Assembly (NCBI RefSeq): GCF_013403915.1
Contig: NZ_JABFDI010000006.1
Location: 124,001 to 188,000, forward strand
From: Winogradskyella pacifica
GTDB taxonomy: Bacteria; Bacteroidota; Bacteroidia; Flavobacteriales; Flavobacteriaceae
Reading direction: 5' to 3'
DNA: 64,000 bases
The position numbers were made by a program, and so were the translations under genes. Each line of letters begins with the position of its first letter. Within the stretch, counting starts at the first letter, position 1. The notes under the pieces were generated by a model, which made no database searches, had not been told where the DNA came from, and saw nothing but the letters and a program-made list of their open reading frames with translations. Below are positions 31,990 through 48,046 of the stretch, in pieces.

Positions 31990-32297
31990 GCAGAGAACCA
32001 CTTTTTCTTTTTCTGAAAAAGTGTGTGAATCGCTTATGCTGAGCGCAGCCGAAGTATCTCATAGATAGTATTTGAATTTGTTATACTGAACAATTAAAGT
32101 ATAAGAGAAAAAGTGAGTGAATCGCTTATCCCAAACTGGTTTTGGGATCTCAGAGAATCGCTTTTTCTTTTTTTATTAGGAAAAGTGTGTGAATCATTTA
32201 ACTTAAGCTTAGGACTGTCTTTAAGGTTTTTAGCTATGAATTTTAAATTAGATTCCTACCTTCGCACGACTGATAAATATGTAAATATAAGTACCCT
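31990..32297. other. 308-base gap with short repeats and hairpins
   Basis: It holds three copies of a ~20-base word (GAAAAAGTGTGTGAATCGCT at 32015, 32107 with one change, and a diverged copy at 32179), two hairpins (CACTTTTTC/GAAAAAGTG near 32000-32023; ATCCCAAA/TTTGGGAT at 32128-32148) and one TGAGCGCAGCCGAAG word at 32039. No credible ORF. Confidence 0.65.
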
Positions 32298-33666: not shown

Positions 33667-34038
33667 TTAAAAAAGTCTATCAAATTTGAATGCTAACATA
33701 TAATAAAGTAGGCCTATTGTCACCAATAAATGAAGTCCAAATCCAATACTATTTATGACTTTGACGGGCATTTTATTATAAAAACCAAAAATAGCATAGA
33801 ACGCAAATAGTAAAATACATGCTTCCAAACCGATGACCACTAATTCTCTAAATTCAAAGTTATGCTCTTTTATATTCGGAGTATTGATAGCCCAAAAAAC
33901 AAATATACCGATTACCATAGCCATATTTAAATACGGAATTATTAAAGTCGATTTTCCCTTTTTGTATGCGACGATTATGGAGACTAAATGGCAAATCAAG
34001 ATTATAATTAGCGTTGTGTTAACATATGTGTCATTCAT
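33667..34038 (-). CDS. Four-helix membrane protein of unknown function
   Basis: 123 aa with four membrane helices (about 8-25, 31-52, 65-86, 93-116) and short loops. No signature residues or recognised family. It is the first gene of a pair with the exported protein downstream and ends the core-type region: an IS110 remnant starts 20 bases beyond its start codon, on the other strand. Confidence 0.6.
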   Translation of the reverse strand: MNDTYVNTTLIIILICHLVSIIVAYKKGKSTLIIPYLNMAMVIGIFVFWAINTPNIKEHNFEFRELVVIGLEACILLFAFYAIFGFYNKMPVKVINSIGFGLHLLVTIGLLYYMLAFKFDRLF

Positions 34039-34058
34039 AAATAACTGTATGTGAGTTT

Positions 34059-34343
34059 GTGTCGTGTTTAGAGAACGAATTTAGGAAATTCAAATTGAAT
34101 AGACCTGAGTGTAGCAAACTGGCGAAGCAAAACATGAGACATTTATTATTTATGTGCAGTTTCAATGCTTGTAAACAAAACAAAGCTTGTCGAGATCTTT
34201 ACGAGCGCATAGTTGCCAAAGGAAAGCGTAAAAAAATAGTATCAATAGCGGTTTGTAGTAATCTACTAAATCAGGCTTTTGCAATCGCTAAATTGGGATT
34301 AATATATGATGGAAATTATAAAAGTACTTTAGTGAAACAGTAA
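34059..34343 (+). pseudogene. IS110-type transposase remnant (C-terminal part), copy 1
   Basis: 94-codon frame whose last two thirds, MRHLLFMCSFNACKQNKACR then LYERIVAKGKRKKIVSIAV and NQAFAIAKLGLIYD, match the C-terminal end of IS110/IS1111 transposases (Transposase_20). The N-terminal DEDD catalytic domain and the HhH region are missing. The last ~135 bases are nearly identical to a second copy at 36727-36861, so both derive from one element. Not functional. Confidence 0.8.
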
Positions 34344-34501
34344 TGCGTTTTTACTTGTTTTTTGCCACAGTACTTTGTTGCTATTATTCAAATGCTTTTG
34401 TTATATTCGCCATCAACTAATCTAGTTAGACTTTCTTCTTAGACTTTTTTCTGCCCTTTTCATTGAGTTGATTTAAGACGAATCTAAAAAAAATCAATTA
34501 A

Positions 34502-34972
34502 ATGAGAAACACTACACTCGTAGCCTGTCTATTACTTGCTACACCATTAATTTATTCACAAGAAAACGTTCCTGCCTCCGGAGGCGATGCCACTGGTAGT
34601 GGCGGTTCGTCCAGTTATTCAGTTGGCCAGTTGGCGTATACCACCAATACAGGAAATGGCACGGTTACACAGGGCGTACAACAAAGTATCGAACTGTTTA
34701 CCTTGAGCAACCCAGAACTAGCCACCGTAAAGCTGTCGGCGGTGACCTATCCCAATCCAACATCAGATTATGTGGTATTGGCCATAAGCGACGCCAAATT
34801 TATAGGTTTGAGCTATGTTCTTTATGATTTACAAGGTAGAGCGGTATCACAAGGTCAAGCACCCCAATCTAACACGCAAATAGACATGCGAACCTTAGAA
34901 TTAGGCACCTATTTGCTTAAGGTAAGCCACAACAAAAAAGAACTAAAGACCTTTAAAATCATCAAAAACTAA
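34502..34972 (+). CDS. Secreted protein with type IX (T9SS) type-A sorting domain
   Basis: 156 aa. Signal peptide MRNTTLVACLLLATPLIYSQ, a Gly/Ser-rich stretch (GGDATGSGGSSSYSVGQLAY), then the Por_Secre_tail domain from about residue 80: YPNPTSDYVVL, YDLQGRAVSQG, RTLELGTYLLKV and the basic end KTFKIIKN. The tail is removed on export through T9SS. There is little other than signal, a short beta region and the tail, so it may display or partner with the collagen-like protein encoded 12 bases downstream. GC content is visibly higher than in the surrounding genes. Confidence 0.82.
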   Translation: MRNTTLVACLLLATPLIYSQENVPASGGDATGSGGSSSYSVGQLAYTTNTGNGTVTQGVQQSIELFTLSNPELATVKLSAVTYPNPTSDYVVLAISDAKFIGLSYVLYDLQGRAVSQGQAPQSNTQIDMRTLELGTYLLKVSHNKKELKTFKIIKN

Positions 34973-34984
34973 TCGTAACCAATT

Positions 34985-36529
34985 ATGAAGAAATTTTACA
35001 CAATTTTAGCGGCGGTTTTATTAACGCTAAGCACGTTTGCCCAAACGCCAGAAAAAATGAGTTACCAAGCTGTTGTAAGAGACAGTGGTGATAACTTAGT
35101 CGCTAACCAACCCATAGGGATGCAAATAAGTATTTTGCAAACCACCGCAACAGGAACAGCGGTTTATGTAGAAACACAGACTCCAACCACGAATATCAAC
35201 GGATTAGTAACCTTAGAAATAGGTACAGGAAGTGTTGTAAGTGGCGATTTTGCAACTATAGATTGGTCTGCTGATACGTATTTTATAAAAACAGAAACCG
35301 ATCCAACGGGCGGAAGTAGTTACACTATTACCGGCACTAGCCAATTAATGAGTGTGCCTTACGCTTTATATGCAAAAACATCAGGTAGTTCTACGCCTGG
35401 TCCAACAGGCCCACAAGGTCCCTCAGGTAATGATGGTGCCGACGGATCCGATGGTGCTGATGGCACTAACGGTTTGGATGGAGCAACAGGAGCAACAGGG
35501 TCTACTGGGCCACAAGGCGCACAAGGTCCAGCAGGTAATGATGGTGCCGACGGATCCGATGGTGCTGATGGCACTAACGGTTTGGATGGAGCAACAGGAG
35601 CAACAGGGTCTACTGGTCCACAAGGCGCACAAGGTCCAACAGGTAATGATGGTGCTGACGGAGCAGATGGAGCTGCAGGCACTGACGGTACGGATGGAGC
35701 TACAGGAGCTACAGGGTTACAAGGACTACAAGGTCCTGCAGGTAATGATGGAGCCGATGGAGTAGGTATTGCACAAACATTAAGTTTTACATCACCTAAC
35801 TTAACACTATCTGATAGTGGCGGAACAGTAGATTTAACATCACTTATTAATGATGCTGATAGTGATATTAGTAACGAAATTCAAAATTTATCAGAAGTAC
35901 TTACTGAAGGTAATACAGCGGATGCTCAAATAAAAAACGTAACCGACCCAACAGATGCCCAAGATGCTGCAACAAAAGCTTATGTAGATGCATTACAAGC
36001 GCAAATAGCGGCGTTGGATGCACGGATTATTGCTTTGGAACCTCTACCAACTATAGGCGAATTTAGATATGGAGGCGTGGTATTCTGGATAGACCCTACA
36101 GATAATACCCATGGGCTAGTTTGCGCCATAGCAGACCAAAGTTCAGCAATACAATGGTCTAATGGTTCTTACATAGTTACCGGAGCTACAGGTGTAGCAA
36201 TTGGTACTGGTGCTGCAAATACAGCTACTATTATTACAGCACAAGGTGCAACAGAAACCAATTATGCAGCAGGTTTAGCAAAAGCTTATACAGGAGGTGG
36301 TTTTAACGATTGGTTTTTACCGAGTGACGATGAGTTGAAAGAAATATTCCTAAATGGAGCAGCTATAGAAGCTACAGCAACGGCTAACGGCGGTGCTGTT
36401 TTTAATACTACTTTCTACTGGAGTTCTACGGAGGTTAATTTTGAGAAAGCGGAGACAAGTAAATTAACTAATAATGGCTCTGCAGCTAAGGGCTGGGGAT
36501 ATAATGTGCGTGCAGTTCGGGCTTTTTAA
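34985..36529 (+). CDS. Collagen-like repeat exported protein with DUF1566-type C-terminus
   Basis: 514 aa. Signal peptide (MKKFYTILAAVLLTLSTFAQ), an N-terminal beta domain (about 25-135), then a Gly-X-Y collagen region of about 120 residues (GPTGPQGPSGNDGADG...), a linker with a short coiled coil (QAQIAALDARIIALE) and a C-terminal domain with GGVVFWIDP, GGFNDWFLPSDDELKEIF and FYWSSTEV, the Fib_succ/DUF1566 pattern. Such proteins trimerise through the G-X-Y part and sit on the cell surface. Bracketed by IS110 remnants; DNA repeats suggest recent expansion. Confidence 0.85.
   Translation: MKKFYTILAAVLLTLSTFAQTPEKMSYQAVVRDSGDNLVANQPIGMQISILQTTATGTAVYVETQTPTTNINGLVTLEIGTGSVVSGDFATIDWSADTYFIKTETDPTGGSSYTITGTSQLMSVPYALYAKTSGSSTPGPTGPQGPSGNDGADGSDGADGTNGLDGATGATGSTGPQGAQGPAGNDGADGSDGADGTNGLDGATGATGSTGPQGAQGPTGNDGADGADGAAGTDGTDGATGATGLQGLQGPAGNDGADGVGIAQTLSFTSPNLTLSDSGGTVDLTSLINDADSDISNEIQNLSEVLTEGNTADAQIKNVTDPTDAQDAATKAYVDALQAQIAALDARIIALEPLPTIGEFRYGGVVFWIDPTDNTHGLVCAIADQSSAIQWSNGSYIVTGATGVAIGTGAANTATIITAQGATETNYAAGLAKAYTGGGFNDWFLPSDDELKEIFLNGAAIEATATANGGAVFNTTFYWSSTEVNFEKAETSKLTNNGSAAKGWGYNVRAVRAF
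35426..35767 (+). repeat. 108-base tandem repeats within the collagen-like region
   Basis: GGTAATGATGG begins units at 35426, 35534, 35642 and 35741 (spacing 108, 108, 99). Units 1 and 2 are almost base-identical over their whole length, units 3-4 are diverged. All spacings are multiples of 9, so the G-X-Y frame is kept. Confidence 0.9.
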
Positions 36530-36546
36530 ACTTTCTTAATAAATAA

Positions 36547-36573
36547 AAAGGCGGCATTTTTGCCGCCTTTTTT
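36547..36573 (+). terminator. Rho-independent terminator after the collagen-like gene
   Basis: AAAGGCGGCA-TTTT-TGCCGCCTTT followed by T. Confidence 0.92.
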
Positions 36574-36660
36574 ATGCCACAATTCTATCGCAGAAAAACA
36601 TACAATATCGTTAATAAAATTGTTTAAAGTAGTGTAAAAGGGAGGCCACGAATAAGTAAA

Positions 36661-36870
36661 ATGGGGCATAAAAAGTTGAGAAACTTATTATTTAGGCGCA
36701 GTTTTACTGCTTGCAAATATAACCAGGCTTGCAAAGCAATTTATGAGCGCATAGTTGCCAAAGGAAAGTGTAAAAAAATAGTATCAATAGCGGTTTGTAG
36801 TAATTTACTAAAGCAGGCCTTTGCAATTGCTAAACCGGGATTAATATATGATGGAAATTATAAAAGTGCT
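36661..36870 (+). pseudogene. IS110-type transposase remnant, copy 2
   Basis: MGHKKLRNLLFRRSFTACKY, then KAIYERIVAKGKCKKIVSIAV and KQAFAIAKPGLIYDGNYKS: again only the C-terminal piece of an IS110-family transposase. Both copies have the same orientation and enclose 2.3 kb. Copy 2 aligns better with intact family members (KMGHKKLRNLLF), so copy 1 is more decayed. Confidence 0.8.
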
Positions 36871-36888
36871 GTGCAACGTTGTATTATT

Positions 36889-37596
36889 TTAATATATAAA
36901 TTTTTTGAGTTCAGCCTTTAAACCTCCAGAATTATCTAATATTTCATATGGTTCAAAATCATCGTTTTTATACTCTTTGTCTTTTAATGATTTATTTATT
37001 AGATCTGTTTTTTCAAATGATTTTTTAGAAATTTTAAATAATTTTTCAAAACTAAAGCCTTTACTTCTCATATGAATATTACCAGTAGAAAAAATAACTA
37101 GAACTTCTTTAGAATTAGGTTTTGTTAAAACAATGTATTCTTTTGGCCCATCTGAAATTATTAAATCAACCTGATAAAAGTTATATGATTGACCTTTGTA
37201 TTTAAGTTGTGGTAATGTAAAGATCATTGCTCTTTTTATTGGTTTTACAAATACTTTTGAAAAATCCAGAGGAATAAATGAGTCGATAAAGGTCTTTTTA
37301 TTCTTCTTTTTATAACCACTTCTTATGTAACTATTTGTGGTGTATTTTAAAGTAACCTTATCAAAATATTTGCCATTAAATTTACACATTCCCATTTTGT
37401 TGTCACATTGTATAACAGAATACATATCCTTTTCTGACAGCTCTAGTATTTCTTTACTACCGTCTGAATAAAATATTGAATCTGAATTTTTGGTGTTAAT
37501 ATCTTCAGATTTTTTAATGTTAGGGGAATAGACTCTAGTTTGGCAATAAGTATAAGAAGAAGTAATTAATAAAATTAAAAGAATAGCTTTTTTTAT
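36889..37596 (-). CDS. Exported protein of unknown function with ATA in place of its start codon
   Basis: The first in-frame ATG is at 37425 (178 aa), but the frame is open well upstream and encodes, from 37596, IKKAILLILLITSSYTYCQT, a textbook signal peptide cut after its first Met, where the codon is ATA. The extended product is 235 aa. Thus either ATA serves as start, the gene begins at the internal ATG and makes a non-exported fragment, or the start was lost by mutation. The body is strand-rich (KFNGKYFDKVTLKYTTNSYI, YIVLTKPNSKEVLVIFSTGN). No family recognised; AT-rich orphan beside an IS remnant. Confidence 0.6.
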   Translation of the reverse strand: MKKAILLILLITSSYTYCQTRVYSPNIKKSEDINTKNSDSIFYSDGSKEILELSEKDMYSVIQCDNKMGMCKFNGKYFDKVTLKYTTNSYIRSGYKKKNKKTFIDSFIPLDFSKVFVKPIKRAMIFTLPQLKYKGQSYNFYQVDLIISDGPKEYIVLTKPNSKEVLVIFSTGNIHMRSKGFSFEKLFKISKKSFEKTDLINKSLKDKEYKNDDFEPYEILDNSGGLKAELKKFIY

Positions 37597-37653
37597 TTTT
37601 TCGTAAGTTATAAGTTAATAATATATTTGAATATAAATTGGCGTGATTGATTG

Positions 37654-38295
37654 CTAAAATTCGCAAATTAAATTGTAATCATTGACTAATTCAATAATAT
37701 CGATTTCTTCATAGAGGTCTTCTTTTAAGTATTCAGTCAGATCTTTACAATCTGAAAAATACTTGAGAGCTCTGTTTTTAAAATTGCTTAAGGAATAATG
37801 AGATATTAATGGTGTTAGTTTTGTTTCGTCTTCTCTAATTACATAAAACTCTTGTTCTTCTTCATAATGATATTTAAAAACATCCACATCCGAGTTTGGA
37901 TTATAAGGATTGTCAATAATTTTTTCTTTGTGTTCAATAGCTACAGTTCTAGTGTATAACTTTACCTTTCCATCAAGTAACAATTTAAAAATTCTATATT
38001 TTCGTTTTTTTAATAGTGCATATTCATAATATCCAGGATTTGCATCATAAGTGTTAAATATGATTTTTTCCACTTGCGATTTGTCATAGCTATTGACATA
38101 TCCTTGCATATCTTCTTTAAACTCAACCTCTGATTTTCCTAATGAAACCAATCTAGCAACATTCATTGGAATCTGTATAAATCCAATTAATGAATCTCCA
38201 TTCTTTAAAATTAGTTGACCTGAAGTCCATTCATATTGAGCATAACTTAAAAAACAATTTAGTAATAAAAATATTAAAGTTAACCTTATTTTCAT
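37654..38295 (-). CDS. Exported protein of unknown function
   Basis: 213 aa from ATG at 38295 (MKIRLTLIFLLLNCFLSYAQ, signal peptide); a longer frame from 38370 adds 25 residues before the signal and is unlikely. The mature part begins YEWTSGQLILKNGDSLIGFIQIP, a pattern seen in Bacteroidota exported proteins that describe a gene product with a G-x-L-x-G-x-I start, followed by charged strands (KLYTRTVAIEHKEK). No family can be named. It lies in the accessory region next to the gene without start codon, same strand, and may be a paralogous neighbour. Confidence 0.6.
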   Translation of the reverse strand: MKIRLTLIFLLLNCFLSYAQYEWTSGQLILKNGDSLIGFIQIPMNVARLVSLGKSEVEFKEDMQGYVNSYDKSQVEKIIFNTYDANPGYYEYALLKKRKYRIFKLLLDGKVKLYTRTVAIEHKEKIIDNPYNPNSDVDVFKYHYEEEQEFYVIREDETKLTPLISHYSLSNFKNRALKYFSDCKDLTEYLKEDLYEEIDIIELVNDYNLICEF

Positions 38296-38469
38296 TGGTA
38301 AGTTAATTGTTTGCAACGGTTTTGTATAAGAATAGTTGCGATGGTAATAAACGCAATTTAACAAGTACAAACCGAATAGAAAATCCGCAAGGATTTTCGT
38401 AAGTAGGTTTGTATTAGCAATTAATTTTATATGATGTTAGCAAACGTTTTTAAAATTGGTTGATTGCGA

Positions 38470-38871
38470 TTAATTATTTACAAGCTCTTCTAAAACACTT
38501 TTCAGTTGACCTTGATTTATTGGTTTGATTAAGTAGTTACTCTTTAAGCTATACTGTTCAGCCCTTTTAATATCTTCTTCACTATTTGAACTTGTTAAAA
38601 TGTAAATAATAACTTTTTGTTCTATAGGTATTTTAGTGAATTCATCCAAGAACTGCCAACCATCCCAAATAGGCATGTTTAAATCTAAAAATATAATTTG
38701 GGGCAGTTTTTCACTATTTAGAAACATAGCTTTTAGTGTATCATATACTTCTTTTCCATTTTTACAAACTAATATTTTTTCAACAAACCCTGATAGTTCC
38801 ATATATTTCTTTGTTATAAACAAATGCATTGGATCATCTTCAACAATACATGCTAAATCTATTTTTCTCAT
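38470..38871 (-). CDS. Single-domain response regulator (CheY-like)
   Basis: 133 aa receiver domain without an output domain. Acidic pocket E11/D12/D13 (VEDDP), phospho-acceptor D63 (FLDLNMP), T93 (ILTSSN) and K116 (LIKPIN). The start codon overlaps the stop of the histidine kinase gene by 4 bases, so kinase and regulator are translated together. Phosphorylated by the neighbouring kinase by inference; the downstream partner is not visible in the window. Confidence 0.92.
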   Translation of the reverse strand: MRKIDLACIVEDDPMHLFITKKYMELSGFVEKILVCKNGKEVYDTLKAMFLNSEKLPQIIFLDLNMPIWDGWQFLDEFTKIPIEQKVIIYILTSSNSEEDIKRAEQYSLKSNYLIKPINQGQLKSVLEELVNN

Positions 38872-41800
38872 TTTGGTAATGTTATTTTAAATGTTGTACC
38901 TAAGTTTACTTCACTAGCTATTTCAATTTTGCCATCCATACTCTCAATTTGGTTTTTTGTAATAAATAGACCCACTCCTCTGGAGTCATCATGACGATGA
39001 AAAGTCTTGTACAAGCCAAAGAGCTTGTCCCCATTTTTTTTCAGATCTATCCCTAACCCATTATCTTTAAAAAATAAAGTGATCATTGATTGTTCAGTTT
39101 CTACATCTGCATAAATCTTCAAATAACTCGCTCTTTCTTCACTTCTATATTTTATGGCATTTGTAATCATGTTTAGCACAATACTATCAAAGTATGCAGG
39201 AACACCTTTGACGGTTAAGTTCTTATCTACATTGTTGATGATTTCAAATTTAGCTTTCATTATTTGTATGTTTAGGATCTCTATGTTTTTTTGAATGACT
39301 TCATGGATATTTACTTTTGAAACATCAGCCTGTGTTAAATTCACTTTTACAATTTCTGTCAAATCATTTACGGTCTGATTCAGATTTTCGGCTCCTAAAA
39401 TAAGAAGTGCAAATAATTCATTCTTCAATATGTCTGGCTGTTCCATTTGAATTAAATCGAGAATTCCAGATATACCTCCACTGTGAGAACGCAGATTATG
39501 GGATACAATATGTGCGAAATTTCGGAGCCTTCCATTTTGTTCATTCGTAATATCGAGCAGTGATTTGATCTCTTTCTCTACTTTTTTTAATTCACTAATA
39601 TCGGTAGCTACACCCAAATATCCCACTATATTATCATGATCAAGAATAGTATTGATAGAAAGTAAAACAGGAAAAGTTGTACCATCATTTCTTATATAGG
39701 TCCATTCTTTGGTGGTTGGCTCACCAATTTTAGCTTCATAAACAAAGGTGTCAAAACCTTTTACTTCTTTTTTATGTTTTTCAAACAATTCAATGCTTCG
39801 CTTTTCTACCTCTTCACGTTGGTGAATTAACTGTGGATTATGTATTCCTACCAATTCTTCGGCTTTATAACCTAGTAATTTTTCGGCACCAGAGTTGAAC
39901 AAGGTAATTGTACCTTTAGTATCGGTGGCAATAACCGAAACTTGTTTACTTGCTTCCAATATGGCTTGCAAACTCGAGATAGCATGTTGAAGTTTTCTTT
40001 CCGCCTCTTTTTCCTGACTAATATCCCTTACAAAAGACCAAATCAGTTTCTTTCCTTTGCTGTCCTTTATCACCACTCCTTGAAGAGCTATAGGGTATCG
40101 TGAGCCATCTTTACGGATGTATTCCTTTTCAAAGAGATCATAGCTTCCTTTGCTTTCCATTTGCTGAATTGCAGTAGTTTCAAATGGCCCATACTCCTTA
40201 GGCGTAGTATCCCAGTAACTCAGTGATAAGAATTCCTCTTTGTTGTAACCTGTTGGTTCAAGTAGTTTATTGTTTACATCTAAAAATTTGCCAGTGTCAT
40301 ATTCATTTAGGGCGATTCCTATCGGGGATAAATTGTATAAAGCAGATAACAGGTCTTTTTGGTAGTCAATATCTAAAAGGAGCTTTTTGCTTTCAGAAAT
40401 ATCTATAATTTGCGAAATAAAGTAGACTACTTTACCTTGCTCATTCTTTACCATAGATACTGCTAATAGGATATGAACTATATGTCCATCTTTATGGAAG
40501 TATCGCTTTTCCATTTGGTAGTGATCTCTTTTGTCTTCAATAAGTTCAGTTAAAAGCTCTAAATCAGAATTTAAATCATCGGGATATGTAATGTCTTGAA
40601 AAGTAAGCTTAATTAACTCTTCTTCTGAATACCCAATTATTTCGCTAACCTTTGTGTTTATCTTTAGCCATTTCCCTTTTTCATCTAACAAAGCCATTCC
40701 AATGGCAGCATTTTCAAAATTTCCTCTAAAAGCTTCTTCACTGATTCGTAGCCTTTCTTCTCTTTGCTTTCTTTCGGTAATATCCTGGTGGGTACCATAC
40801 ATCATCAAGGGTTTTCCGTCTTTAGTCCATTCAAAAACTTTGCCCTTATCATAGACCCATACCCAGTGCCCATCTTTGTGCTTTATACGTGCTTCAAACT
40901 CATAGTAGTCTACCTTTTTCTCAAAACAAGCATTTAATCTACGATTGGATTCTTCTAGGTCATCTGGATGAGCTAATTTCACCCAGGTTTCTATGCTAAT
41001 AGGAGTGAGCTCTTCCAAGCTATAACCAACAATTTCAGCCCACCTCGCATTATAGACGGTTTCCCCAGTTTGTACATTCCATTCCCACGTGCCAACATGG
41101 GTGCCTTCTATTACCGATTTGAATCTTATTTCATTGTGCTTTATTTCAGTAATATCCTGAAAACTACCAATGAGCTTATCGCCCAATTTTCTTCCTGTTG
41201 ATCTTACCCATATCAGTTTGTCTTTAGCGGTGATCATTTGGCATACCAAATCAAATGGGGCGCTATTAGAAATACACTTTGTAATCGCATCGGTAATTAT
41301 AGGACGATAGTGAGGATGGTAAAATTCTATTGCATTTGCTTTATTATGGTTAAAATCCTGAGATACTTCGTGAATTTCATAAACTAAATCACTCCAGGTG
41401 GTTTTTCCTGTAGCGATGTCCAATTCCCATATACCTAGCTTATTAGCTTTTTGTGTTTCTTGGAGCAATTCATTCTTTTTCTCTAGTTCTTGATTAAGAA
41501 CATCTAGCTCAATACTTTTTATTCTGTTTTCAAAAAGTTTTACCGTTTGTCCTGCTAATTTTTTAAGCTGCTCCAGCTGCGATTTGTTGATGTTTTTAGG
41601 CGTGTCATCAATAGTACAAAGCGTACCTAATGGGAAGCCATTGGAAGTAACCAAAGGGATACCCGCATAAAATATAACATTTGGATCACCGGTAGTTAAA
41701 GGATTGTCATGAAACCGTTCGTCTTTTCGGGCATCCTCCACTATGAATGGTTCATTTGGTTGATTGATAGCATGTGCGCAAAATGCGTAGTCTTTTGGTG

Positions 41801-42008
41801 TTTCACGAACTTCCAAGCCATGGTGAGAAAGAAACCATTGCTTGTTTTCGGTTATCAAACTAATTAAAGATATTTTTGTACCGCAAATTTGTGCAGCCAT
41901 AGAAGTAATAAAATCAAAATCGTCATTCTCGGAAAGCCCAATCAATTGATAACTTTCCAATTCTTTTAGTCTTTCAGACTCATTTTCTGGTATTTTGGGG
42001 TTTTTCAT
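38868..42008 (-). CDS. GAF/multi-PAS sensor histidine kinase
   Basis: 1046 aa, soluble (no membrane helix). An N-terminal GAF domain (about 25-165) with FDFITSMAAQICGTKISLIS and FCAHAINQP, then five or six PAS/PAC units (markers YEIHEVSQDF, WNVQTGETVYNARWAEIVGY, GYSEEELIKLTFQDITYPDD, EKEYIRKDGSRYPIALQG, GYLGVATDISELK). The kinase part has H837 in IVSHNLRSHSGG, N-box NMITNAIKYR, DNGLGI and GVGLF. An unusual HisKA with NLRSHS replacing the common E-L/R-N. Cytosolic sensor of several inputs; ligand unknown. Overlaps the response regulator gene. Confidence 0.92.
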   Translation of the reverse strand: MKNPKIPENESERLKELESYQLIGLSENDDFDFITSMAAQICGTKISLISLITENKQWFLSHHGLEVRETPKDYAFCAHAINQPNEPFIVEDARKDERFHDNPLTTGDPNVIFYAGIPLVTSNGFPLGTLCTIDDTPKNINKSQLEQLKKLAGQTVKLFENRIKSIELDVLNQELEKKNELLQETQKANKLGIWELDIATGKTTWSDLVYEIHEVSQDFNHNKANAIEFYHPHYRPIITDAITKCISNSAPFDLVCQMITAKDKLIWVRSTGRKLGDKLIGSFQDITEIKHNEIRFKSVIEGTHVGTWEWNVQTGETVYNARWAEIVGYSLEELTPISIETWVKLAHPDDLEESNRRLNACFEKKVDYYEFEARIKHKDGHWVWVYDKGKVFEWTKDGKPLMMYGTHQDITERKQREERLRISEEAFRGNFENAAIGMALLDEKGKWLKINTKVSEIIGYSEEELIKLTFQDITYPDDLNSDLELLTELIEDKRDHYQMEKRYFHKDGHIVHILLAVSMVKNEQGKVVYFISQIIDISESKKLLLDIDYQKDLLSALYNLSPIGIALNEYDTGKFLDVNNKLLEPTGYNKEEFLSLSYWDTTPKEYGPFETTAIQQMESKGSYDLFEKEYIRKDGSRYPIALQGVVIKDSKGKKLIWSFVRDISQEKEAERKLQHAISSLQAILEASKQVSVIATDTKGTITLFNSGAEKLLGYKAEELVGIHNPQLIHQREEVEKRSIELFEKHKKEVKGFDTFVYEAKIGEPTTKEWTYIRNDGTTFPVLLSINTILDHDNIVGYLGVATDISELKKVEKEIKSLLDITNEQNGRLRNFAHIVSHNLRSHSGGISGILDLIQMEQPDILKNELFALLILGAENLNQTVNDLTEIVKVNLTQADVSKVNIHEVIQKNIEILNIQIMKAKFEIINNVDKNLTVKGVPAYFDSIVLNMITNAIKYRSEERASYLKIYADVETEQSMITLFFKDNGLGIDLKKNGDKLFGLYKTFHRHDDSRGVGLFITKNQIESMDGKIEIASEVNLGTTFKITLPK

Positions 42009-42123: not shown

Positions 42124-43158
42124 TAACGCAACAACCGTTGCTTTTTTTTAATGAGTCTAAGCTACAAATTTCTGTTCATTTTCGAGATCTGTTGTTTAAT
42201 TTTTTTTGTATATCTACTAATGTTTTTTGATCAATTTTATTAAAGTTAGTATCTTTAGGAAGGTATCTTCTAATGAGTCCATTAGTGTTCTTGTTAGTGG
42301 CTCTTTCCCAAGAGGAGTAAGGGTGAGCAAAGTAAATATTTGTCCCTGTTTTTTGTGTAATAAATTCATGTTTTGCCATTTCAATTCCGTTATCATAAGT
42401 CATTGTTTTTTTTGAATAACGGGTTTAATTTATTTAAGTGTTTGGAGAACATTTTAGCGACTTCTTTAGAGTTTTTAGCTTTTAACTTGACTATTATTGT
42501 GTATCTAAATTTGCGTTCTACGATGGTTCCAATTGCAGATTTTTGGTTTTTACCAATCATTAAATCACCTTCCCAATGTCCAATTTATTCTCTTAATAGA
42601 ATATGCTTAGGTCTATTGTCAATACTGACCTAGTTGATGATTTTGCTTCCAATTCCCCGTCTTTTTTTAGGGGGTCTACGTCAAGTTTTTTACGTACGAG
42701 TAGTTTGATTAACTTTTTGTATAAGCTAGCTTGTAGTTGTGTATAAATGTTTCTGTATATAGATTCTTGGGAAATAGACATTATAGGGTCGTTAGGATAC
42801 TCTAGTTTTAATTTACCAGCAATTTGCTCAGGTGTCCATTCAGATAATAATCTTCTATAGACGTATAACCGAAGTCTTTTATATGTAGAAATTTTATCCG
42901 TATTTCTCTTGTTTAAATAATCCTCTTTAGCATACCAATGGGCTAACTCAGCGGCGTATTTATCTCTATGAGATTGCACCCATTTATTGACCTCTCTAGT
43001 GATTGTAGAACGCGATCTATTCAAAGTTTTGGAGATATGTGCTTTTGACTTATTTTAGTTTAAAAGAGTCTCTATTTGTATTTTTCCTTTCAGAGTAAGT
43101 CGACCAATTTTTTTACGTAACATAATAACAAATCTATTAATTTATATTTGTTGCGTTA
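42124..43158 (-). mobile_element. Decayed IS30-family insertion sequence
   Basis: About 1035 bp between matching ends TAACGCAACAA (42124-42134) and TTGTTGCGTTA (43148-43158), the normal IS30 size. The transposase reading frame on the minus strand is broken by a stop in the N-terminus (LLN*NKSKAHISKTL), a stop after RSVLT..., and a +1/-1 slip at a run of A before MTYDNG. DDE-family pieces remain: [10 protein letters not shown] (first D), TYDNG (second D), and SSWERATNKNTNGLIRRY (E). No target duplication could be confirmed. Inactive. Confidence 0.85.
42176..43140 (-). pseudogene. IS30 transposase, broken by stops and frameshift
   Basis: The frame would start at the ATG near 43140 (MLRKKIGRLTLKGKIQIETLL). 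Two long pieces survive, 42593-43024 (HTH and linker) and 42176-42403 (C-terminal catalytic part with ERATNKNTNGLIRRYL), with a degenerate stretch between. Confidence 0.85.
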
Positions 43159-43306
43159 AGTTATTGAGTACAGCTTCAACTAGACTCATGTTTTTGGGTT
43201 ATGAATAGGAATACTTTTTATAAGGTTTAACACATTTGTTGCCCTACTTTGCATAAGACGGAAGAAGCGCTACACCATTGTCAACACTCATTTAATTATA
43301 AAAAAA

Positions 43307-43359: not shown

Positions 43360-44802
43360 CTAATTCCATCCACCACCTAAGGCTTGATAAATTTTTACAT
43401 TCGCCAAGAATTGGTCTCTTTTCGTTTCAATAATTTCAATTTTAGAATCTAAAGCTTCTCTTTGCGTCAATAGAACTTCGGTGTATTCTGCTCTAGCAGA
43501 TCTAAACAATTGTATAGAAAGATCAATAGCTTCTGTCATAGCATCAACTTGCTTTTCCTTTAACTCATAATTTTCTTTTAAATTATTAATGTTAGAAAGC
43601 GTGTTGGCCACTTCAATATAACCGTTTAGAATGGCTTTTTCATATTCAAAAACCGCTTGTAGTTGTCTGCTATTGGCATTACGGTATTCCGCTTTAATAG
43701 CATTTCTATTGATTAACGGACTAACCACATCTCCAACTAAAGAATATAAAAGCGATTCTGGTGTACTGGTTAAATACTTTGTTTTAAAAGCTTGCAAACC
43801 AATACCTGCTTTAATACCAATAGAAGGGTAGAAGTTCGCTTTGGCAATTTTAACGTTCAATTTTGAAGCTTCTAATTCATATTCTGCTTGTTTAATATCG
43901 GGTCTATTTGCTAAAAGCTGCGCTGGGATACCGGCTTCAATTGTATCTATTGGGCGATTAATAAAATCGTCAGAATCTCTGTCAATTTTTTGTGGATAGC
44001 GCCCTAAAAGAAAATTAATCTTATTTTCAGTTTCAACAATTTCTTGACGAATTTCAAATTTATTACTTTGATTTTTATAGACTTCTGCTTCAAAACGTCT
44101 CACCGCTAATTGCGTCGCTCTCGCAGCTTGCTTTTGAAGTTTAACCATTTCTAAAGCATTTTTTTGAATCTCTAAATTCTGCTCAATAATGTTTAACTGA
44201 TTATCTAAAGCTAAAAGCTCGTAATAGGAATTGGCTATTTCTGAAACAATAGTGGTGATCATAAAATTCTTACCTTCAATAGTACTTAGATATTCTAAAA
44301 CGGCTGCTTTTTTTCCATTGCGCAGTTTTTTCCACACATCGAGTTCCCATGACACATCCAAACCAACTGAAAAATCGGTTAAAGGTTCTGGAAATTCTTC
44401 GCCTTCACGAATATCTAAATGCTGTTCTACAGCTCCATTTCGGGTGTATTCACCAACTTTTTCAACTTCTGCGCCTGCGTAAACATTTACAAAAGGTAAA
44501 TACTCTCCTTTTCTAACTTGTACCTCATTATTAGCCATTGCAATTTGCTGTAGCATAATATTAAGCTCCTGATTATTGGCTAGCGCAGTATCAATTAATG
44601 CGACTAACTTTGGATCTGAAAAGAATGTTTTCCACTGTATGGTGGCGCTATTTACCGAATCTGTAGTTTTATCTAGATACTGATCAGGCACCGTGGTGTT
44701 CGCTTCTTTTACAGCGTGTTGCGTAGGTACACAAGAGCAAAGTAATAGTAAGGTAAGCATACCAATAAGGTGTGCTTTTCTAATCGTTTTTATCTTATTC
44801 AT
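43360..44802 (-). CDS. Outer-membrane efflux lipoprotein, TolC/OprM (NodT) family
   Basis: 480 aa. Lipoprotein signal ending LLLLCSC with the modified Cys around residue 24. Two OEP repeats with long heptad helices (e.g. ANNEVQVRKGEYLPF, ANRPDIKQAEYELEASKLN, YPSIGIKAGIGLQ) are typical NodT-type. It forms the trimeric outer-membrane channel of the pump encoded upstream; the start overlaps the end of the RND pump gene by 8 bases, showing tight coupling. Export cargo not inferable. Confidence 0.93.
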   Translation of the reverse strand: MNKIKTIRKAHLIGMLTLLLLCSCVPTQHAVKEANTTVPDQYLDKTTDSVNSATIQWKTFFSDPKLVALIDTALANNQELNIMLQQIAMANNEVQVRKGEYLPFVNVYAGAEVEKVGEYTRNGAVEQHLDIREGEEFPEPLTDFSVGLDVSWELDVWKKLRNGKKAAVLEYLSTIEGKNFMITTIVSEIANSYYELLALDNQLNIIEQNLEIQKNALEMVKLQKQAARATQLAVRRFEAEVYKNQSNKFEIRQEIVETENKINFLLGRYPQKIDRDSDDFINRPIDTIEAGIPAQLLANRPDIKQAEYELEASKLNVKIAKANFYPSIGIKAGIGLQAFKTKYLTSTPESLLYSLVGDVVSPLINRNAIKAEYRNANSRQLQAVFEYEKAILNGYIEVANTLSNINNLKENYELKEKQVDAMTEAIDLSIQLFRSARAEYTEVLLTQREALDSKIEIIETKRDQFLANVKIYQALGGGWN

Positions 44803-47800
44803 CGTTTTTATTTTTACGAAGTTTTTTCAATAGTTTTGTGAGTTTACTGATTTTTTCAGCATTAGCTTCACTTTGATTTTTAGTTTCACTAACGCGCATC
44901 ATTTCTTCCGAAATAGGCTCACTAGCTTCGTCTTTAATTAGACTTTTTCCATCAGCCATTTTTGCAAAAATGTAATACAGACCAGGAATAATTAAAACAC
45001 CACCAAGCGTACCGATAAGCATTCCTCCTAAGGCAGAACCACCAATAGTTCTATTCCCAATAGCACCAGCTCCAGAAGCCATAACTAACGGAATTAATCC
45101 GGCAATAAAAGCAAAGGATGTCATTAAGATTGGTCTAAATCGTGCTCTAGAACCTTCAATGGCGGCTTCTAAAATTGTAGCACCTTGCCTGCGTTTTTGA
45201 ACGGCAAACTCCACAATTAACACGGCATTTTTACCAAGTAAACCAACCAGCATAATGACTCCAATTTGAGCATAAACATCATTAGCTAATCCCATGGCTT
45301 TAAGAAGTATAAACGAACCGAAGACACCAACAGGTAAAGATAAAATAACCGCAAAAGGTAACAGGAAGCTTTCATATTGTGCTGCTAATACAAAGTAGAC
45401 AAATATGAGTACGACTATAAAAATGTAAATAGATTCATTTCCGCGTTGCGCTTCATCAAAACTCAAGCCTTCCCAAGCAATATCATAACCCCTTGGTAAT
45501 TGCGTCGCAGCAACTTCTTTAATCGCTTTAATAGCATCATCACTTGTAAATCCTGCTGCAGGCAATCCTCTAATGGATGCCGAATTGTAAAGGTTATAAC
45601 GTGTAATTTCGTTAGGGCCTAGTTTCTTTTCAATACTCATAAAAGCAGAATAAGGAACCATTTCTCCTTCCTCATTTTTTACAAATAATTTTTCGAGATC
45701 ACTTGGTAAACGTCTGTATTCTGGTGCTGCTTGCGTGTACACTTTAAAGAAACGACCAAACCGAATAAAGCCTTGCTCGTAAGTACTACCAATTAAAATG
45801 TTGAGGTTTTCCATGGCTGTACCAATGGTTACTCCTTTTTGCATCGCAATTTTGTTGTTTATTTTTAACTCATATTGCGGATAGTTGGCAGAGAAGAAGG
45901 TAAATAAACCAGATAGTTCTGGGCGCTTAGATAAGGCGTCCATAAACTCGTTATTCACACTCTCAAAATGGTGATAATCTGTAGAGTTTGTTTTATCTAA
46001 TAAACGTAAAGCGAATCCACCTGAAGATCCAAATCCTGGCACTGCTGGCGGTTCAAAATATTCTATAACTGCTCCTAAGTCTTTGGTTTCTTCTTCTAAT
46101 TCTTCCATGATTTCATGAACCGAGTGCTCACGTTCTGACCAAGGTTTCAGGTTAATTAAACAGGTTCCTGCGTTGGATCCACGACCTTCTGTCATAATTT
46201 CATAACCAGCTAAAGAGGATACGGATTCGACACCTTCAGTTTCTTCACATATTTTTTGAAGTTTTTTAGCCACTTCATTGGTACGCTCTAAAGTCGCACC
46301 AGGTGGTGTCTGAATAATGGCATAGATCATACCTTGGTCTTCATTAGGAATAAACCCGGCAGGTAACACTTCATTTGTAAAGAAAATTCCAACACAGAAA
46401 GCGGCAAGTATTCCAAAGGTGATAAAGCGTCTCGCGACTATTTTGTTTAGAATCTTAACGTAACTTCCTGTCAGTTTTTCAAAACCACCGTTAAAGTAAT
46501 CAATAAATTTATCTAAAGGTGAAGTACGTTTCTTACCATGATTATTCTTTAATAACATGGCACAAAGCACTGGAGTTAACGTCAAGGCCACAATGGCAGA
46601 AATAACAATTGAACCAGCCATGGTAATTGAGAATTGTCGGTAGAAAACACCAACAGGACCCGTCATAAACGAAATAGGAATAAATACCGAAACCATGACC
46701 AAAGTTATGGCAACAATAGCACCTCCAATTTCGCCTAAAACCTCTGAAGATGCTTGGTAGGGAGTGAGGTGATGGTCTTCTTCCATTTTTACGTGAACAG
46801 CTTCAACGACCACAATGGCATTATCGACCACAATACCAATCGCTAATACTAAGGCAAAAAGCGTAATAAGATTAATGGATAACCCAAACATCTGCATCAC
46901 GAAAAAGGCTCCAATCAAGGAAACCGGAACAGCAATAATAGGAATTAAAGTTGAACGCCAATCTCCTAGAAATAAGAATACCACTATGGCAACTAAGATA
47001 AAAGCATCTCGCAGTGTATGAATAACTTGATCTATAGAAGCATCTAAGAAATTAGAAACATCATAACTAATTTGAAAATCAACTTCTGGAGGAAGATCAA
47101 CTTCAAGTTCTTTTAGCTTTTCTTTTACAGCATCAATAACATCACTACCATTACTACCAAAAGTTTGTTTTAATACAATTGAAGCCGAAGGTTTTCCATC
47201 TAAATTTGAATATATATCAAAAAATTCACTTCCTAATTTTACATCAGCAATATCAGCAAGCGTAACAATTTGCCCTTCTTTATTGGCTTTAACAATAATC
47301 TCTTCATATTGTTCGGGTTCGTTATAACGGTTTTGATAGGTTAAAACATACTCTAGGGATTGGGCTGTTTTACCCGAACTTCGTCCTAAACGACCAGGAC
47401 GTGCCAAAATACTTTGGTCTTCCATCGCTTCTAAAACTTCTTCTGCAGAAATATTATAAGCGCGCATACGATCTGGTTTTAACCAAACACGCATGGCATA
47501 TTTTCGACTTCCTAAAATTTGAGCACTTGCAATCCCTTTAATTCGCTGTATTTCAGGAATTATTTTGGTGTAAGCATAATTGTAGAGGAACTTTTCGTCG
47601 TTGTCTTTATTTGTACTCGATAGGTTAACGTACATTAACATACTAGGTTGTACAGGTGTAATAATAACACCTTCACGCTGTACCAATTCTGGAAGCAATG
47701 GCATTACCTGATCGACTCTAGTTTTTACTCTAACAACCGCTTCATTGGGATCTGTGCCTGGTTCAAAAATAACACGTAAGGTGCCTTCACCAGCACTAGT

Positions 47801-48046
47801 AGCATCTGATGCGATATAACGCATGTCTTGAACACCATTGATGGCGGTTTCTAATGGAATTAATGTGGAATTCACCAATACATCAGCACTCGAACCTGGA
47901 TAGGCAATAAAAATATTGACTGTAGTCGGTGCAATTTGCGGGAATTGAGATATAGGTAGTTGCTTTATCGCTAAGCCACCTATAAATATAATGATCACCG
48001 AAATGACAATAGCCAAGACGGGTCTTTTAATAAATTTTTTAAACAT
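44795..48046 (-). CDS. RND multidrug efflux pump (AcrB/MexB, HAE1 type)
   Basis: 1083 aa, somewhat longer than AcrB owing to a charged C-terminal tail after the last helix. MFKKFIKRPVLAIVISVIII (TM1), FIAYPGSSADV, the substrate-binding porter region and the second-half LVGLLGKNAVLIVEFAVQKR with the conserved Lys are present. The proton-relay motif reads GIVVDNAIVVVE: D408 is present but the second Asp of AcrB is Asn409. Proton-driven inner-membrane transporter working with the adaptor and outer-membrane factor on both sides of it. Substrate unknown. Confidence 0.93.
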   Translation of the reverse strand: MFKKFIKRPVLAIVISVIIIFIGGLAIKQLPISQFPQIAPTTVNIFIAYPGSSADVLVNSTLIPLETAINGVQDMRYIASDATSAGEGTLRVIFEPGTDPNEAVVRVKTRVDQVMPLLPELVQREGVIITPVQPSMLMYVNLSSTNKDNDEKFLYNYAYTKIIPEIQRIKGIASAQILGSRKYAMRVWLKPDRMRAYNISAEEVLEAMEDQSILARPGRLGRSSGKTAQSLEYVLTYQNRYNEPEQYEEIIVKANKEGQIVTLADIADVKLGSEFFDIYSNLDGKPSASIVLKQTFGSNGSDVIDAVKEKLKELEVDLPPEVDFQISYDVSNFLDASIDQVIHTLRDAFILVAIVVFLFLGDWRSTLIPIIAVPVSLIGAFFVMQMFGLSINLITLFALVLAIGIVVDNAIVVVEAVHVKMEEDHHLTPYQASSEVLGEIGGAIVAITLVMVSVFIPISFMTGPVGVFYRQFSITMAGSIVISAIVALTLTPVLCAMLLKNNHGKKRTSPLDKFIDYFNGGFEKLTGSYVKILNKIVARRFITFGILAAFCVGIFFTNEVLPAGFIPNEDQGMIYAIIQTPPGATLERTNEVAKKLQKICEETEGVESVSSLAGYEIMTEGRGSNAGTCLINLKPWSEREHSVHEIMEELEEETKDLGAVIEYFEPPAVPGFGSSGGFALRLLDKTNSTDYHHFESVNNEFMDALSKRPELSGLFTFFSANYPQYELKINNKIAMQKGVTIGTAMENLNILIGSTYEQGFIRFGRFFKVYTQAAPEYRRLPSDLEKLFVKNEEGEMVPYSAFMSIEKKLGPNEITRYNLYNSASIRGLPAAGFTSDDAIKAIKEVAATQLPRGYDIAWEGLSFDEAQRGNESIYIFIVVLIFVYFVLAAQYESFLLPFAVILSLPVGVFGSFILLKAMGLANDVYAQIGVIMLVGLLGKNAVLIVEFAVQKRRQGATILEAAIEGSRARFRPILMTSFAFIAGLIPLVMASGAGAIGNRTIGGSALGGMLIGTLGGVLIIPGLYYIFAKMADGKSLIKDEASEPISEEMMRVSETKNQSEANAEKISKLTKLLKKLRKNKNDE

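Follow-up and report, generated by a model that had tools for sequence, protein, structure and literature searches.

Classical integrons are recognised by their integrase, IntI, and chromosomal integrons are tandem arrays of single-gene, mostly unidirectional cassettes, separated by folded sites with complementary ends and a conserved GTT, with the recombinase at one end. In the relevant passages of the IntegronFinder 2.0 paper, an extra domain is said to distinguish IntI, and the survey of complete RefSeq genomes presented there names one complete Bacteroidetes integron, that of Salinibacter ruber, earlier work of the same authors having seen only cassette-less integrases in Bacteroidetes; two further papers include Bacteroidota among the integron-bearing phyla. 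The attC sites of classical integrons are described as insertion points of the insertion sequences (ISs) ISKpn4 and ISPst6 of the IS1111 family (PMC11187229), and the account of IS621 and the IS110 bridge RNA describes stems in the 5' non-coding region and an internal loop whose sides match the left and the right target (PMC11208160). Here we analyse a stretch of 64,000 nucleotides (nt) from Winogradskyella pacifica (assembly GCF_013403915.1, contig NZ_JABFDI010000006.1, positions 124,001–188,000), referred to in its entirety as the window, in which the original prediction had noted two 3' fragments of IS110 transposase genes on either side of a gene pair for a type IX secretion system (T9SS) sorting-domain protein and a collagen-like protein. 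We consider it likely that these fragments are what remains of an IS110-group element with one fixed insertion point in an attC-like site, and that the gene pair lies in a decayed integron-like cassette island of Flavobacteriaceae.

The window fragments themselves match nothing in a Pfam search, and their assignment to the IS110 family rests on full-length relatives in other genomes. Three such elements in the related genome G033 encode transposases of 323 amino acids (aa), have both ends in common and are inserted at one identical point of a repeat, ...ACGG^TGTTG; one copy matches PF01548 (55.9 bits), PF02371 (86.8 bits) and NF033542 (202 bits; cut-off 140), that is, it possesses both the DEDD and the Transposase_20 domain by which the IS110 family is defined. 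Fifteen elements with both ends were found, of which two that are internally deleted were excluded from the counts; these are shortened derivatives lying in attC-like sites (L008, 138 nt; L079, 287 nt), and two other copies, L002 and L009, are apparently internally deleted and have lost one end. All 13 remaining elements occupy the same point, ACACGG^TGTTG, of an attC-like repeat of about 128 nt. Their left flanks agree with TATAYACG in at least six of eight positions, TGTTG or TGTTA follows on the right, and 11 of the elements have a covariance-model match whose end is no more than 5 nt away from their left end, L029 and L044 having no match there; flank matches and the coincidence of IS ends with sites, like the agreement of guides with targets below, were judged by eye. 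The 13 elements are 1201–1267 bp long, their longest open reading frame (ORF) is the transposase gene, and they carry no extra genes. The non-coding region upstream of that gene measures 185–236 nt in the nine elements with an ORF of at least 317 aa, as in the IS110 group, and only some 40 nt follow the stop codon, so that the downstream non-coding region typical of the IS1111-attC group is lacking. Every one of the 32 genomes with an IS match also has sites, versus 90 of the 165 genomes without one (Fisher 4e-8, uncorrected for kinship).

The 5' non-coding region of these elements folds into a consensus structure of outer stem, internal loop and apical stem, and the two sides of the loop read TAYACG, identical to the target, and CAACA, the reverse complement of TGTTG. 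Two pairs of the apical stem are preserved by compensatory change in five of the 13 elements; covariation contributes little to the fold as a whole (-0.25 kcal/mol). At the position where the target has either C or T, guide and target agree in 12 of 13 elements, the exception being L031 (Fisher p 0.005, by eye and uncorrected for relatedness). On the right-hand side the CAACA guide of L044 fits its TGTTA target with one mismatch, and the CAATA guide of L082 does not fit its TGTTA target. A CTT stands at both ends of the IS and is absent from the target. The likeness to the bridge RNA of IS621 in stems and loop suggests that the IS110 relatives carry a putative bridge RNA with a target loop matching the attC-like site, by which insertion may be guided. 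An unexplained feature was seen in L075, where the transposase coding region, about 600 nt from the right end, contains AACAAAGTACTATGCTAAAAAACAA, which differs from the reverse complement of the right end at three of 25 positions and is followed by the target-like AATACACGGTG.

The repeat that receives these elements is abundant in the W. pacifica genome, a 17-base piece of it occurring 34 times with at most two mismatches versus once when the pattern is reversed; the occurrences frequently form tandem series on small contigs and at the ends of contigs. A covariance model, R1, was built from 24 sites of this genome and has 128 positions and 17 pairs, which make up the inner stem of the site. 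Successive sites enclose units with a median length of 787 nt, whose ends are complementary to each other in a unit-specific manner (e.g. GTTGTGCTTA...TAAGCACAAC): complementarity of at least 7 nt was present in 35 of 46 intervals, as against 6.9 % of 2070 non-cognate pairs. This comparison covered four W. pacifica contigs and the G033 region and included some weaker matches with shifted ends, and such shifts probably explain part of the 11 intervals that failed. Where a unit has an ORF of at least 60 aa, it lies on the same strand in 34 of 37 cases, and one of the three exceptions is an IS110 transposase gene. Compared with the integron core GTTRRRY, the cassette starts mostly keep GTT[G/A] but not RRRY. 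Single-gene units separated by folded sites, with R boxes complementary within a unit, are hallmarks of integrons, and to judge from sequence the repeat-separated units have the anatomy of integron cassettes. The one-contig genome G033 holds an array of about 37 kb (C1, approximately 3292963–3329819, L126–L128; 31 sites used), in which two 899-nt intervals open with the same 284-aa ORF, so that one cassette seems to have been duplicated.

An R1 match at E<=1e-6 was obtained in 122 of 197 genomes. When the genomes were split by hand, these comprised 67 of the 68 from the genus, 47 of the 51 from the rest of the family and eight of the 78 from other families of the order. With up to 17 candidates scored per genome, and just one match in 14 of the 122, the survey counts sites and does not imply arrays everywhere. 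In an R1 search with 181 matches, some were one site on both strands or lay in overlapping stretches. Rfam at its gathering threshold gave no match for eight sources, namely the window and seven other stretches of the W. pacifica genome.

A gene for a tyrosine recombinase of 381 aa comes after three sites on contig C11 of the W. pacifica genome; the closest relative of this recombinase (96 %) is found in Winogradskyella psychrotolerans. Relatives of this recombinase occur at 79 loci in named genomes, 77 of them Bacteroidota by title and mostly Flavobacteriaceae. Although these loci supplied about 719 kb of sequence upstream versus about 377 kb downstream of the recombinase, 186 of 195 R1 hits (E<=1e-3) lie downstream of the recombinase start and nine upstream; a downstream site is present at 44 of the 79 loci and at 42 of the 59 with at least 1 kb of downstream sequence. 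The recombinase is XerA-like (NF040815, 234 bits; cut-off 220), and its best matches among solved structures are XerA proteins (PDB 4a8e, 148 bits; 5hxy, 129 bits). XerA resolves chromosome dimers at dif; the array recombinase differs in that it adjoins cassette arrays and is longer by about 100 residues at its N terminus. It does not qualify as an IntI, since it scores 190 bits with TIGR02249 against a cut-off of 265, and IntI4 aligns to it in two pieces with 67 residues versus 24 in between, i.e. the IntI insertion is missing. No IntI above the cut-off was found in the 197 genomes, and none of 14 control genomes is integron-bearing; weaker matches to the IntI model are uninformative because the model matches 187 of the 197 genomes and all 14 controls below its cut-off. 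Thus, the array appears to work like an integron but has a XerA-like recombinase that falls short of IntI, a GTT[G/A] core without RRRY and complementary ends that are often 10 nt long.

The IS element bears a comparable relation to the IS1111-attC group as that group is portrayed in PMC11187229. Both have a DEDD transposase and insert at one point of attC, but in the present element the long non-coding region precedes the transposase gene, in the manner of the IS110 group, and its target belongs to another cassette system, so that it would work like a member of the IS1111-attC group while not being one. Our literature search, in which titles and the beginnings of abstracts were covered and bioRxiv and most subscription papers were outside the scope, found no account of cassette arrays in Flavobacteriaceae and no attC-targeting IS110-group element like the present one. 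On balance we favour the view that nearly all of the Flavobacteriaceae searched possess an integron-like system of XerA type with attC-like sites of its own, and that this system is parasitised by an IS110 element with a bridge RNA directed at both boxes of the site, a second and separate solution beside that of the IS1111-attC group. If the sites are functional, a widespread platform for gene capture may have gone overlooked because its recombinase is not IntI. The attC-targeting IS110, for its part, would represent a naturally occurring RNA-guided element whose target is conserved. IS110 remnants would moreover mark cassette junctions and so make cassette turnover traceable.

The two fragments in the window were described in the original prediction as of the same orientation and nearly identical over about 135 bases, and this holds: they form direct repeats at 34113–34328 and 36655–36870 with 182 of 216 positions identical (84 %), rising to 93.7 % over the best 127 nt. 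Contrary to the expectation that their boundaries could not be drawn, they can be, because the right end and the insertion point are constant in the full-length relatives. Right-end copies from this and related genomes all stop at ...GCCACAGTACTTTGTT, with some base changes; the next base is mostly G or A, and the sequence after it differs but is similarly patterned. By comparison with these copies, fragment A extends to 34380, 37 nt beyond the stop codon of its ORF, and ends in GTTG, and fragment B, which begins at 36628, is missing the final portion of the right end. A DNA search of the W. pacifica assembly (G000; 94 contigs) gave nine matches including the query, in which fragment A and six other copies retain the same right end with a varying remainder of the element, and one further copy (L009) has the left end only. 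A complete relative, which had been proposed as something to look for in this genome, was not detected in the assembly by the DNA search or by a Transposase_20 search, the latter giving one partial match only (profile positions 12–54, 43 positions, near a contig end); full-length relatives were encountered only in other genomes. The enclosed segment is GC-rich as stated, with values of 0.37–0.45 in 1-kb windows within 34001–37000 versus 0.25–0.31 in the nearest flanks, but as a sign of transfer this was rejected for the collagen-like gene, whose third-position GC is ordinary (0.235; mean 0.265, sd 0.031, for 36 window ORFs of at least 200 aa), so that its high GC reflects amino-acid composition. 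The T9SS gene (156 aa) has an unusual third-position GC of 0.408. Within its own genome the collagen-like gene matches itself alone, and the T9SS protein itself plus two weak matches.

Comparison of the locus across relatives (Table 1 gives the window features) bears on how the pair came to its present place. The possibility, raised with the original prediction, that one arrangement is fixed in all relatives was not borne out: the segment between the conserved flanks, a gene that we take to be yicG-like and what is presumably an efflux operon, differs among all eight relatives examined. It measures about 0.9 kb without a site in G018 and 2.2 kb in G005, where a site directly adjoins the right flank; in G011 the yicG-like gene is followed by a run of sites exceeding 10 kb and in G033 by three good sites and IS remnants, the right flank lying beyond the stretch examined in both, and in G017 and G042 synteny is broken at this locus. 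Homologous DNA restarts on the right at about 43245–43301 in G002, G005 and G018. Three genomes, G002, G031 and G000, share the left flank and an orthologous fragment A, and then continue from GTTG with three different contents, namely a glyoxalase-like gene on the minus strand in G002, a 'KHF' gene and then the pair in G031, and the pair directly in G000. Fragment A therefore predates the divergence of these contents, since G002 and G031 share it yet continue with other genes, and the changing boundary beside it is a GTT[G/A] cassette junction. In G042 the pair is at a different place, the yicG-like gene of that genome lying deep inside another contig; there an intact site (83 bits) and then a KHF gene come before the pair, and after it stand a second collagen gene and an IS110 fragment whose right end is complete. 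The KHF cassette is thus joined at GTTG to two left partners, an intact site in G042 and the remnant in G031. With the copy that adjoins the pair in G042, fragment B shares 95.5 % identity over 243 nt and fragment A 85 %, and the T9SS protein is at least 99 % identical in three of 197 genomes, W. pacifica included, at two chromosomal places. These findings support the proposed acquisition of the pair, with which fragment B moves, but IS110 does not look like its vehicle. Because contents vary, the arrangement is not fixed. What lies between the yicG-like gene and the efflux operon resembles a small cassette island in decay, and the pair would be one of its many contents. In G042 two tandem 515-aa collagen-like ORFs were also seen (L072, 3906–5453 and 5745–7292), with diverged C-terminal parts. 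G002 and G031, but not G000, have an additional ORF of some 250 aa that lies after the yicG-like gene and before the position equivalent to 32973.

Our working model has four steps. The bridge RNA in the 5' non-coding region would pair with the TATAYACG and TGTTG boxes, and the transposase would insert the element between them, at the point seen in the full-length relatives. The element would then decay with retention of its right end, as in the copies described. The XerA-type tyrosine recombinase at the head of the array, with which the sites are associated, may thereafter swap cassettes at GTT, and this would account for the different contents found beside the remnant in G000, G002 and G031. 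Fragment A would accordingly be an old insertion in an attC-like site, whose intact right end leaves the GTTG core beside the following DNA, and the pair, with fragment B already attached, another island content joined at that core. Cassette exchange by the array recombinase is something we infer from these comparative traces.

Several observations weigh against this model. Fragment A overlies a weak site (21.9 bits, with E 0.0003 when 13 kb are searched and E 0.01 for 433 kb), whose orthologous spots score 31.0 bits in G002 and 24.0 bits in G031, and no attC-like site was found to the right of the pair, where only fragment B remains. The pair is oriented opposite to the usual cassette direction, and its junction reads GTTG in G000 versus GTTA in G031 and G042, amid a short local repeat, which requires one more small change. 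The G031 contig ends within the collagen gene, and the right end of its fragment A is degraded. The ends of the stretch 36871–38315 are not complementary to each other (by eye), and its cassettes therefore seem fused. Finally, 17 of the 59 recombinase loci with at least 1 kb downstream have no site hit.

The alternative that fares best, though we think it unlikely, is that homologous recombination between scattered IS110 remnants or attC-like repeats exchanged the contents, with no site-specific recombination at this locus. The genome does contain similar IS fragments and sites at several places, the remnant has taken the place of part of the site, which may no longer be a substrate, and the pair is in reverse orientation; such an exchange between repeats could have been the last step in placing the pair. 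The breakpoints, however, fall on GTTG in G002, G031 and G000, the two left partners of the KHF cassette have only the core in common, and complementary ends throughout the arrays indicate site-specific recombination in general. It is decidedly improbable that the repeats are a dispersed family of miniature inverted-repeat transposable elements (MITEs) or repetitive extragenic palindromic (REP) sequences, hit incidentally by IS110 and arrayed by tandem duplication: IS1111 members that target REP repeats are mentioned in PMC11187229, and the blank Rfam result and the lack of IntI above its cut-off would fit, but MITE-like repeats would not be expected to delimit units with their own complementary ends, mostly one gene orientation and a different gene in each, nor to lie in integron-like arrays downstream of one recombinase. 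Capture by IS110, in which an element or pair of copies brought the surface-protein genes as a unit as originally suggested, is most improbable, for although same-orientation copies flank the pair and fragment B adjoins it in G042 too, G002 has fragment A without the pair, the bracketing copies are mere fragments, 84 % identical, with different histories, and none of the 13 full-length elements (1201–1267 bp) carries extra genes. A composite transposon was rejected, fragment A being common to the pair-less G002 and fragment B to G042 at another locus.

Table 1. Features of the window around the gene pair (gene names of the two conserved flanks are presumed)
Feature	Position	Strand	Basis or remark
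yicG-like conserved left flank gene, 206 aa	32298–32918	+	Matches at E<=1e-60 in 53 of 79 genomes
123-aa gene, cassette-like position left of fragment A	33667–34038	-	Present in 6 of 79 genomes
Degenerate attC-like site, left part	34043–34112	+	Model match 34043–34164 extends into fragment A
Fragment A, IS110 transposase 3' codons and complete right end	34113–34380	+	Ends in GTTG (34377–34380)
T9SS sorting-domain protein, 156 aa	34502–34972	+	PF18962, 44 bits (cut-off 27)
Collagen-like protein, 514 aa	34985–36529	+	PF01391, 67.4 bits
Fragment B, 3' codons of an IS110 transposase and an eroded right end	36628–36870	+	Comparison with other copies
GTGCAACGTTG, cassette-start-like	36871–36888	+	By eye, against cassette starts
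178-aa gene, function unknown, 24 % GC, cassette orientation	36889–37425	-	
Gene of about 213 aa, function unknown, 27 % GC, cassette orientation	37654–38295	-	
attC-like site, then GTTAGCAAACGTTTTT	38315–38439	+	81.6 bits, E 1e-18 in 433 kb
Response-regulator-like and PAS/histidine-kinase-like genes, after the preceding site	38470–42008	-	Labels by eye
Efflux operon, conserved right flank: outer-membrane factor (43360–44802), resistance–nodulation–division (RND) pump (44795–48046)	43360–48046	-	

The sharp 17-base pattern has a single match with three mismatches in the window, which is at chance level; the covariance model then detected the diverged sites of Table 1. The 123-aa gene to the left of fragment A was found in W. 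pacifica, G002, G031, G017, G021 and G033 (as pieces). The collagen-like protein may have an Lcl domain at its C terminus (PF07603, 29.7 bits, under the cut-off of 34.9). Between the kinase gene and the efflux operon, a 143-aa ORF on the minus strand (42593–43024) resembles, by eye, a fragment of an IS30-type transposase. Between two conserved genes at 32004–32200 there are three imperfect 33-nt repeats (AAAAGTGTGTGAATCGCTTA-like), and repeated matches also occur there in several relatives.

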